Under the pieces are notes generated by a model, which was not told the origin of the DNA, made no database searches, and saw only the letters and a list, made by a program, of their open reading frames with translations. Below, piece by piece: positions 27,702 to 33,268 of a stretch of DNA of 43,131 nucleotides. Source of the DNA: Salinisphaera shabanensis E1L3A (GTDB lineage Bacteria; Pseudomonadota; Gammaproteobacteria; Nevskiales; Salinisphaeraceae); the NCBI RefSeq assembly GCF_000215955.2, contig NZ_AFNV02000029.1, positions 1-43,131 of the forward strand, in the 5' to 3' direction. Numbering within the stretch: position 1 is the first letter of the stretch; every line of letters starts with the position of its first letter. Made by a program: the position numbers and the translations under genes.

Positions 27702-31310
<3,609 letters not shown>

Positions 31311-31452
31311 CGCTCCCGCACTTCGTTCTAAGACGCGTTTGCCACAGATGGGCCCAGATCGACGCGGTTGGAAGGGCGATAGTGATATTCCCGAGGTTAC
31401 GCCGTTGTTTCGATGCCATATGTCTTTCGGCACTCACGAGTTTGCCGAAACT

Positions 31453-32055
31453 TTGGTTTCGCGCTGCAGCGCGACCCACTTTCGTTTGCTTGTCCAAACG
31501 AAAGTAGGCAAAGGAAAGGACACCCGGGTTACGCGTCGGCGCGCAGCGCGCCGAACCACTGCGATGCTCGAGCCGAAGCGATGCGGCAAAAACTCGCATC
31601 GCTTTCGCGATGCTCAAACACCTTGCCGCACCGGCGCAGTGCGCCGGACACCCTTCGGCCCTGCGCTTCTCGTTCGCTCCACACGGTGCCTGAATACAGG
31701 CGGATTAGCCCGTAGTCCTGAGCCGTTACAGCTACGAACAAAACCGCCGCCCGTGGTTGCGTTGCGTCGGATTACGCCTTGGCTAATCCGACGTACAAAA
31801 CTCGTGACCTTGAGCGAGCGCCAGCGACGCTTGCCTGTATTGGGCCCCTTGGGCGTAGCGCCGAGCAGTGGAGGCCGAACGCGGACAAAGCGGGCCGGAT
31901 GTTTGAGCGAAGCGAGTTTCCGGCACGCCCGCGTTCGGCCGGAGCCGCGCAGGGAATCGGCGCGTAGCGCCGACGCAAGACAGGGTGCCCTTCTCTTGGT
32001 TACTTCTCTTGGGCAAGCAAGAGAAGTGACTCGCACAGCAGTGCGAAACCCCAAG
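31453..32055. repeat. Giant imperfect inverted repeat made of nested hairpins, non-coding
   Basis: About 600 bp between the carboxylase and the 2OG oxygenase. Left arm (31453-31710) and right arm (31781-32055, read in reverse) have the same order of parts. The order is GGTTTCGC..GCGA hairpin (palindrome 31459-31474; TCGCAC-AGCA-GTGCGA 32031-32046), a 10-11-bp stem (31478-31505; 32002-32027), a purine linker, ACACCC or GCACCC, a GCGTCGG stem (31536-31554; 31957-31973), an AACTCGC..CTCAAACA segment, and AATACAGGC. Arm differences preserve pairing: ACTTTCGTTTG/CAAACGAAAGT on the left, ACTTCTCTTG/CAAGAGAAGT on the right. The centre holds GTCGGATTA-N9-TAATCCGAC (31766-31792). Further perfect stems are 31631-31647 and GGCCGAACGCGG/CCGCGTTCGGCC (31873-31884, 31929-31940). 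No supported CDS lies in 31311-32218. Confidence 0.75.
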
Positions 32056-32218
32056 CCTGAATTCGCCCGCGTCGTTGATTCAGACGCACTGATAGAGCAG
32101 CGATCTTTCCGTACCCAAGCGTTCATCAAACCCGCAGCGTCATCCCACCGCGCCTAGTCGACAACACCCGTCACCAATCGCAAACGCCAAAACACGCAAA
32201 CGTCTCAAGAGGTTTAAT

Positions 32219-33268
32219 ATGACCACCCGCCAACCCACCGCCTTCGAATCCATCCCGGCAATCGACATCGCGCCGCTGTTTGGCTCCGATGTGCAGGCAC
32301 AGCAGGCCACCGCCGAAGCACTGGGCCGCGCGGCCCGTGAGGTCGGCTTCTTTTACGTGATCAACCACGGTATTTCCGAAGCACGTCAGCAGGCGCTGTT
32401 CGACCAGACAAAACGCCTGTTCGAGCTGCCGCTGCAACGAAAGATGGACTACTACATCGGCAAGTCCGATAACCATCGCGGCTACGTACCGGCCGGCGAA
32501 GAGGCCCCCGACCCGTCCAAGGCCGATGCCAAGGAGGCGTTCGATCTGTCCTTCGAATTGCCCGACGATCACCCGGAGGTGCGTGCCGGCACGCCCATGA
32601 TGGGGGCGAACGTCTGGCCCGATATCGACGGCTTCGCCGACGATGTTTACGCCTATTATCAGGACGTGTTCGCTGTCGGGCGCGCATTGATGGGCGGCTT
32701 CGAACAGGCGCTTGGCCTGGAGGCCAATACCCTGCTCGGCGAGGTCACCGAGCCGCCGAGCCAGCTGCGCCTGATCCACTATCCCTACGACCCCAATGCC
32801 CAGGACGCCCAGGGCATTGGTGCCCATACCGACTACGAATGCTTCACCCTGCTGCGCCCGACCGCGCCCGGCCTGGAAGTGATGAACGGTGCCGGTGAAT
32901 GGGTCGATGTGCCCTATCGCGACGATGCGCTGGTGGTGAACATTGGCGACATGCTGGAGATATGGACCAACGGCGCGTTCGTGGCCACGTCGCATCGCGT
33001 GCGCAAGGTCAAAGAGGAACGCTACAGCTTCCCCCTGTTCTTCGCCGCCGACTACCACAGCCAAGTCGCACCGCTGCCGCAACTGCTCAAAGACGGGGAA
33101 ACGCCCAACTACGAACCACTGTCGGCCGGCGATCACCTCTGGGCACAGACGATCCAGACCTTCAACTATCTCAAGAAACGGCTGGCCGACGGCGAAATCG
33201 AGCTGCCCGACGGCGCCCGCGGTGCCGGCACACTGGGCCAGCACGCCCGGCACAAGGACGAGGCGTAA
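32219..33268 (+). CDS. 2-oxoglutarate/Fe(II)-dependent oxygenase, isopenicillin-N-synthase-like
   Basis: 349 residues. An N-terminal DIOX_N domain (about 12-115, with PAIDIAPLFG and VGFFYVINHGI) is followed by the jelly-roll oxygenase core. The Fe(II) triad is His203 and Asp205 in GAHTDYECFTLL and His259 in TSHRVRK; the 2OG carboxylate anchor is R268-x-S270 in ERYSFP. The superfamily includes the ethylene-forming enzyme and plant homoarginine-6-hydroxylases, which release guanidine, as well as many unrelated hydroxylases. Start ATG 32219 has AGAGG 7-8 bases upstream. It lies 908 bp after the guanidine carboxylase with the repeat between, so a separate transcript is likely. A 221-residue gene follows after 2 bp. 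Substrate unknown. Confidence 0.9.
   Translation: MTTRQPTAFESIPAIDIAPLFGSDVQAQQATAEALGRAAREVGFFYVINHGISEARQQALFDQTKRLFELPLQRKMDYYIGKSDNHRGYVPAGEEAPDPSKADAKEAFDLSFELPDDHPEVRAGTPMMGANVWPDIDGFADDVYAYYQDVFAVGRALMGGFEQALGLEANTLLGEVTEPPSQLRLIHYPYDPNAQDAQGIGAHTDYECFTLLRPTAPGLEVMNGAGEWVDVPYRDDALVVNIGDMLEIWTNGAFVATSHRVRKVKEERYSFPLFFAADYHSQVAPLPQLLKDGETPNYEPLSAGDHLWAQTIQTFNYLKKRLADGEIELPDGARGAGTLGQHARHKDEA

Follow-up and report, generated by a model that had tools for sequence, protein, structure and literature searches.

A ~660-bp intergenic inverted repeat of Salinisphaera whose units covary as hairpins, a pseudoknot and an apparent triple helix

The window, i.e. the whole 43,131-nt stretch of Salinisphaera shabanensis DNA that was analysed, contains a non-coding repeat block of ~660 bp at positions 31421–32084, flanked by a biotin-dependent carboxylase gene (27702–31310) and a 2OG-Fe(II) oxygenase gene (32219–33268). 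The block comprises two ~250-nt units of one family, a long unit A and a short unit B, which face each other across a spacer. Comparison of 33 copies places the onset of conservation 34–37 nt beyond the motif TTTCGC on either side, and two cross-site alignments cover the entire block. The initial annotation had drawn the repeat at 31453–32055; the block is real, but those ends are slightly short, with conservation extending to about 31421 and 32084. The features are as follows:

31421–32084, no strand: whole element (unit A, spacer, inverted unit B), delimited by conservation across copies
31440–31702, plus strand: unit A, long type; the pyrimidine triple helix is proposed to lie on the minus strand
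31459–31474, no strand: unit A hairpin P1, TCGCGCTGCAGCGCGA
31478–31505, no strand: unit A hairpin P2, loop CTTGTC
31509–31518, minus strand: unit A putative third strand, read there as CTTTCCTTTG and running parallel to the purine strand of P2
31518–31522, no strand: unit A pseudoknot strand GGACA, pairing with loop TGTCC
31536–31554, no strand: unit A hairpin P3
31570–31659, no strand: unit A nested stems P5 (31572–31578/31653–31659), P6 (31582–31589/31623–31630) and apical P7 (31596–31613), inside conserved ACTC...CTCAAACA; located by sequence and alignment, with no covariation score
31703–31831, no strand: spacer, containing a 27-nt hairpin (31766–31792) that is a separate repeat
31832–32070, minus strand: unit B, short type, inverted; the proposed folded strand is the plus strand
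31873–31940, no strand: unit B stem P5 (31873–31884/31929–31940), apical TGTTTGAGCGAAGCGAGTTT; no covariation score
31957–31973, no strand: unit B hairpin P3
31983–32030, plus strand: unit B putative triple-helix pseudoknot, GGGTGCCC, with third strand CTTCTCTTGG and hairpin GTTACTTCTCTTG-GGCAAG-CAAGAGAAGTGAC
32031–32046, no strand: unit B hairpin P1, TCGCACAGCAGTGCGA

The spacer hairpin (GTCGGATTACGCC..GGCTAATCCGAC) is a REP-like repeat distinct from the element. It recurs at many places in genome G007, in a stretch at 3.62–3.69 Mb with some copies ~135 bp apart, and a Y1 transposase match lies near these repeats, at 3674109.

Alignment of 31440–31702 with the reverse complement of 31832–32070 gives a local score of 65 (71.5% identity over 151 bp), far above the scores of 500 dinucleotide shuffles (mean 15.1, sd 2.5, maximum 24), bearing out the annotated inverted repeat of ~600 bp with alignable arms. 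Profiles seeded by either arm and iterated over 79 loci both converge on 180 overlapping hits, on both strands, indicating that the two arms are one ~250-nt unit. The alignment took in 133 distinct full-length Salinisphaera units, which fall into two subtypes, long A and short B. Each displayed Salinisphaera pair consists of one of each, and single units and arrays occur besides the inverted pairs. The stems that the annotation had named are present (31475–31488/31495–31508, 31999–32011/32018–32030, 31873–31884/31929–31940, and both P1 hairpins), and in the RNA-folding check that it had proposed the 631-base block beats all 20 shuffles (z = −7.3).

Comparison across copies reveals that the stems change in a compensatory manner. 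In particular, changes on both sides of the stem are present in P1, P2 and P3 among the 133 distinct Salinisphaera units. Across several genera, a set of 46 units has 95.6% of its P2 and pseudoknot cells paired, and 109 cells are changed on both sides, against a shuffled mean of 28.6; when the registers are slid, pairing falls to 41–53% and both-side changes to 2–14. The pseudoknot, in which the P2 loop pairs with a downstream strand, is formed in 98.4% of cells in the same 46 units, with both-side change at 3 of the 4 scored pairs (the last pair is CG in 24 units and GC in 20). The sequence of the P1 hairpin differs between families, where the units are misaligned at P1, and this difference is hence a visual observation. 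Thus the compensatory change that had been noticed between the two arms holds also across other copies.

The tract that follows P2 resembles an imperfect copy of the P2 arm. On the complementary strand, its letters lie parallel to the P2 purine strand and match it by T.A-T and C+.G-C pairing, which are the two triads that the accessible text of PMC13407867 names. Specifically, a triplex code (A>T, G>C and T>G) relates the third strand to the purine strand: among 46 distinct haplotypes and at four variable positions, A faces T in 103 of 118 cases, G faces C in 34 of 44, T faces G in 9 of 12, and C faces C or T in 10 of 10. In triplex chemistry generally, a T-A inversion is best met by G, and a C-G inversion by C or T. 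The code is matched in 146 of 174 cases, compared with a mean of 104 and a maximum of 127 in 2000 permutations; shifting the parallel register by 1–2 positions gives 67–89/174, and antiparallel registers give 70–128/174. A Watson-Crick third strand was rejected on this comparison, its best antiparallel register reaching 128/174 against 146/174 for the parallel one.

The code holds within the genus and outside it. In Salinisphaera, 94 of 116 variable positions follow it (29 haplotypes; permutation maximum 81, so that 0 of 2000 shuffles come up to the observed 94), and a purine-strand T faces G in 41 of 44 units and A in none. In the other genera the match is 60 of 80 (20 haplotypes, one of which dominates, with misregistered rows retained), a level reached by 1 of 2000 shuffles and thus weaker than in Salinisphaera; the permutation counts keep some units in which the third strand is misregistered or which are not the motif. 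In a further check, using a pattern with three positions free per side and the matching genomes outside the genus, all 51 free positions follow the code, two of them as T>G and three as C>T; they come from 17 genome-haplotypes in 15 genomes, which comprise six distinct haplotypes only, the commonest making up 10 of the 17 cases. Copying of a repeat, whether inverted, direct or mirror, would not produce T>G. In the accessible text, pyrimidine-purine inversions are said to destabilise triplexes (PMC13407867) and natural bases to lack stable triplexes at such inversions (PMC9964087), and the accessible text of PMC3711454 and PMC9964087 holds no support for G opposite T-A. A triple helix is apparent in both units of the window. 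The compensatory and triplex-code covariation together back the selected structure that the annotation had proposed, and units that change together in a way that would keep their hairpins, their knot and an apparent three-stranded helix suggest that the blocks are kept or spread for their folded shape.

Element matches are present in 36 of the 61 genomes searched, the window's own included, and in all 14 of the genus. The window's genome (G000) holds at least 22 matched stretches, several overlapping and four near full length. With the arms aligned beyond chance, further copies present and compensatory change in excess, none of the annotation's own grounds for refutation applies. Copies of 430 bp or more number at least 29 in the congener G008 and at least 4 in G000, where one further pair is split in pieces. 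Several contigs of G003 start or stop inside the element (L053, L055, L056); because contigs break within the element, copy numbers in draft genomes are lower bounds. The family ranges over Xanthomonadaceae, Nevskiaceae, Pasteurellaceae and some Pseudomonas, and among the matches listed are Xanthomonas, Pseudoxanthomonas, Lysobacter, Frateuria, Solimonas, Stagnimonas, Hydrocarboniphaga, Pasteurella, Mannheimia, Avibacterium, Rodentibacter, Aggregatibacter and Pseudomonas. The core pattern was found in 14 of 369 genomes of a class sample and in 6 of 398 genomes of a phylum sample, all six within the same class. A phage or plasmid home was considered and rejected: the element was not found in phage records and viral contigs, and the plasmid matches amount to 52 bp in three Pasteurella multocida plasmids.

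In several Pseudomonas (L139, L148, L111, L195) and Pasteurellaceae (L204, L170) loci, the first 70–160 nt of one or both units are recognisable, the second unit of L111 being nearly full. These inverted pairs still span about 550–700 bp, which argues that their inner body has diverged or been replaced. Inverted pairing is kept across lineages and polarity is not: the loci counted in Nevskiaceae/Solimonadaceae are >< in 21 of 21 cases, and the Xanthomonadaceae pairs are <> in 16 of 17.

Two sites that are filled in G008 are empty in relatives. At L062, the flanking matches stand 921 bp apart in G008, whereas G003, G004 and G006 have 109, 141 and 136 bp, respectively, between them (G000, G011 and G012 are uninformative, their flanks being rearranged). 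At L025, the corresponding distances are 840 bp (G008) and 62 bp (G000); this empty site rests on one relative, in which loss is possible, the flanks not being adjacent in other relatives. A third site (L052, in G003) is unusable as an empty-site test because its left flank is itself repetitive, and the intergenic letters at the empty sites are too diverged to give exact element ends. The check for target duplications that had been proposed came out negative, with no enriched flank identity in 32 elements, and no autonomous partner element was noticed in the loci fetched. The candidate transposase Y1/RAYT (PF01797) is matched in 14 of 14 genus genomes and, at E ≤ 0.001, not in G032, G033, G036 and G040, four members of the order that hold element matches; mobilisation by RAYT was therefore rejected as a requirement.

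The most widely shared site among the loci fetched is filled in ten genomes of the genus, which argues for long residence; G003 shows one flank of it only, where the contig ends. In G000 this site (L003) lies between the end of a RecB-type nuclease gene and recD, and recB and recD are expected to form one operon. Sequence similarity at shared sites is mixed. At six shared sites, the A unit of G008 is closest to a paralog five times (90–95%) and to its ortholog once. Many units have the ortholog as their nearest match (L001, 98% versus 86% for the best paralog; L064, 87% versus 81%). Comparison of the window's own site with G003 gives 98.5% identity for the A arm, against 84–89% for the flanks and 81% for the B arm. 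Old sites with young-looking sequence point to conversion or replacement as well as spread. Short remnants in G000 (L008, L010 and L015, 41–88 bp) hold mainly the P1–P2 end, and relatives have longer copies at the sites of L008 and L010, which suggests that decay can leave the putative triple-helix end. Of the annotation's proposal of a MITE-like element, the dispersal, the variable copy number and the empty sites stand; the absence of a target duplication or transposase among the sets searched, and the site common to ten genomes, do not fit it.

The closest known kind is that of the E. coli BoxC/PIT/TM_ECO intrastrand triplex repeats, which, according to the accessible text of PMC4666352, are dispersed and intergenic, vary in copy number between related strains and include five inverted pairs, each of a type A and a type B. 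The same text lists bacterial triplex motifs by pattern search, with no agreed function and no associated mobility gene. The Salinisphaera element resembles BoxC/PIT class II in its strand order (pyrimidine, purine, third strand) and short first loop (PMC4666352, accessible text). Its stem core of 10 nt, third strand of 10 nt and first loop of 6 nt agree with the BoxC/PIT description of a 6–15-nt stem with short loops, and the displayed pairs of A with B agree with inverted pairs of two subtypes. The TM_ECO consensus (CCCTCNCCC...GGGNGAGGG...) is absent: the Salinisphaera element has an A/T-rich stem without G/C tracts, whereas the 34–37-nt motif of E. coli is rich in G/C and of the purine type (PMC4666352, accessible text). 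Compared with the E. coli pair at hrpB-mrcB, which covers about 85 bp, the Salinisphaera pair is ~660 bp long with units of ~250 nt, and it adds a covarying loop-tail pseudoknot and stems P1, P3 and P5–P7. The Salinisphaera substitutions fit a pyrimidine motif, on the opposite strand. Judged by its letters, the element is similar in kind to BoxC, with architecture in common and sequence not, and would not be a BoxC member.

Other known systems share parts of this architecture. REPIN/BIME elements are intergenic, non-coding inverted pairs of structured units, found also as alternating arrays and moved by RAYT (Y1); the Salinisphaera element is likewise intergenic and non-coding, with paired units and arrays, but is several times larger, would contain a pseudoknot and a triplex, and is present in the four order members with no Y1 match. 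In telomerase RNA and the ENE, a pyrimidine-rich third strand follows the purine strand of a stem within an H-type pseudoknot. The Salinisphaera units appear to resemble them in this respect, but are a bacterial repeat that may act as DNA. Like the MITEs described in the accessible text of PMC10969869, the element is a non-coding, multicopy dispersed inverted repeat with copy-number differences and empty sites; unlike them, it has neither a target duplication nor a parent transposase among those looked for, and its internal hairpins are the conserved part. The accessible text of PMC2267715 describes stem-loop families, among which Pam-1 of P. multocida is built of uptake-sequence motifs and on that ground was rejected as an element of the Salinisphaera type. 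We found no published description of the ~660-bp element in the literature within reach, subscription papers mostly and supplements wholly lying beyond it; the ITxF database of PMC4666352, a paper accessible in part, may list the core motif.

With moderate confidence, we favour the reading that the block is a giant BoxC/PIT-like, non-autonomous and MITE-like dispersed repeat of ~660 bp, the units of which are selected to fold as a single strand. The proposed fold of each unit comprises hairpin P1, further stems, and an H-type pseudoknot that P2, the loop-to-tail pairing and the third strand build together and that includes a pyrimidine-motif triple helix. The fold may form in single-stranded DNA exposed at replication forks, and units may be copied between sites by a trans-acting recombination enzyme or by fork stalling followed by template switching; such copying would yield both spread and homogenisation.

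The choice between DNA and RNA bears on the alternative that the block is a structured non-coding RNA, a possibility also raised by the annotation, or a 3′-UTR module, transcribed from the pyrimidine-rich strand, its triple-helix pseudoknot protecting or scaffolding an RNA in the manner of telomerase RNA or the ENE. An RNA acting from one strand would tolerate G-U more readily than A-C. In P1–P3 of the 133 Salinisphaera units, G-T and A-C mismatches are about equal (P1 19/13, P2 35/32, P3 10/14), which argues for DNA or for use of both strands; in the pseudoknot the counts are 7/67, 57 of them at the outermost position, which is not counted as a pair. Among the 295 units of a stricter set, stem position 11 has C.A 158 times and T.G once, which on the proposed strand amounts to G.T, and a weaker skew in the same direction (42 versus 18) is present at the remaining scored positions of the stem (4–10, 12, 13); this skew favours the pyrimidine-rich strand. 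The identical letters on the opposite strand read as a purine-motif triplex, and the assignment of the folded strand therefore follows from the inversion choices and the stem skew. The skew, the covarying pseudoknot, and the ability of RNA to form pyrimidine-motif but not purine-motif triplexes (PMC4666352, accessible text) are on the side of an RNA. Against it, in addition to the balance of mismatches in P1–P3, stand the strand order that flips between Xanthomonadaceae and Nevskiaceae/Solimonadaceae, the lack of a sigma-70-like promoter in 31200–32300, and the lack of an Rfam family above threshold in 30900–32700, where two sub-threshold hits (a CRISPR repeat and a glutamine riboswitch) were set aside. 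We consider an RNA module unlikely.

A host-serving DNA structure, such as a fork barrier, a recombination hot spot or a nucleoid mark, that occupies fixed sites, undergoes gene conversion and is not mobile would account for the recB-recD site filled in ten genomes (the genes being named in G000) and for the within-genome homogenisation at some shared sites. Triplex repeats have been linked to rearranged E. coli loci and block DNA polymerase in vitro, but earlier in vivo tests of PIT elements gave no effect (both from the accessible text of PMC4666352). The wide range of copy number among congeners, the sites that are empty in close relatives, and the lack of a common theme among the 12 neighbouring genes examined speak against fixed host sites, and leave this alternative improbable in our judgement.

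The annotation had also offered a transcription boundary, and a bidirectional terminator or boundary element fits the gene context in Salinisphaera: of the 59 elements whose two neighbouring genes were called, none lies between divergent genes, and with a second gene caller 1 of 75 elements does, compared with 13 of 51 other gaps (both counts come from home-made gene callers, with two sites, L029/L091 and L032/L086, counted twice). It failed in two other groups, where divergent settings are common: 10 of 26 in Xanthomonadaceae and 8 of 21 in Nevskiaceae/Solimonadaceae (from 35 and 28 loci, respectively, that we chose among 118 listed, both genes being called in 26 and 21). No lineage-wide gene orientation was found around the element, and an orientation rule bound to one lineage speaks against a terminator role. 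One copy sits between recB and recD, T-run terminators are not beyond chance (2 found, 1.5 expected), and the filled L062 site and its empty counterparts have a separate terminator-like hairpin with a T run. A boundary role is thus very unlikely. Least credible of all is that the compensatory changes arose purely by template-switch correction of palindromes, with no selection: the stems are nearly without G-T and A-C intermediates, as that process would have it, but it is largely contradicted by a third strand that obeys the Hoogsteen code including T>G.

Returning to the reading of a dispersed repeat selected to fold as a single strand, we tentatively extend it, as a possibility somewhat short of even, to a widespread class of repeats kept and spread by selection for a pseudoknot-held intramolecular triple helix in single-stranded DNA (or RNA). 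In that case the Hoogsteen code would be enforced by evolution in full, with G opposite T-A inversions as part of it, and the units would be copied or converted by an enzyme that recognises the fold. The third strand appears to change in step with the duplex by triplex chemistry in several genera, and evolution itself thereby seems to report that strand. Biophysical work would gain a testable case of a selected natural triplex, in a defined construct of 48 nt, and the search for a recognising protein would have a large natural family to draw on. Such a repeat would also account for a kind of intergenic block found repeatedly in the genomes of Xanthomonas, Solimonas, Salinisphaera and, in part, Pasteurellaceae.
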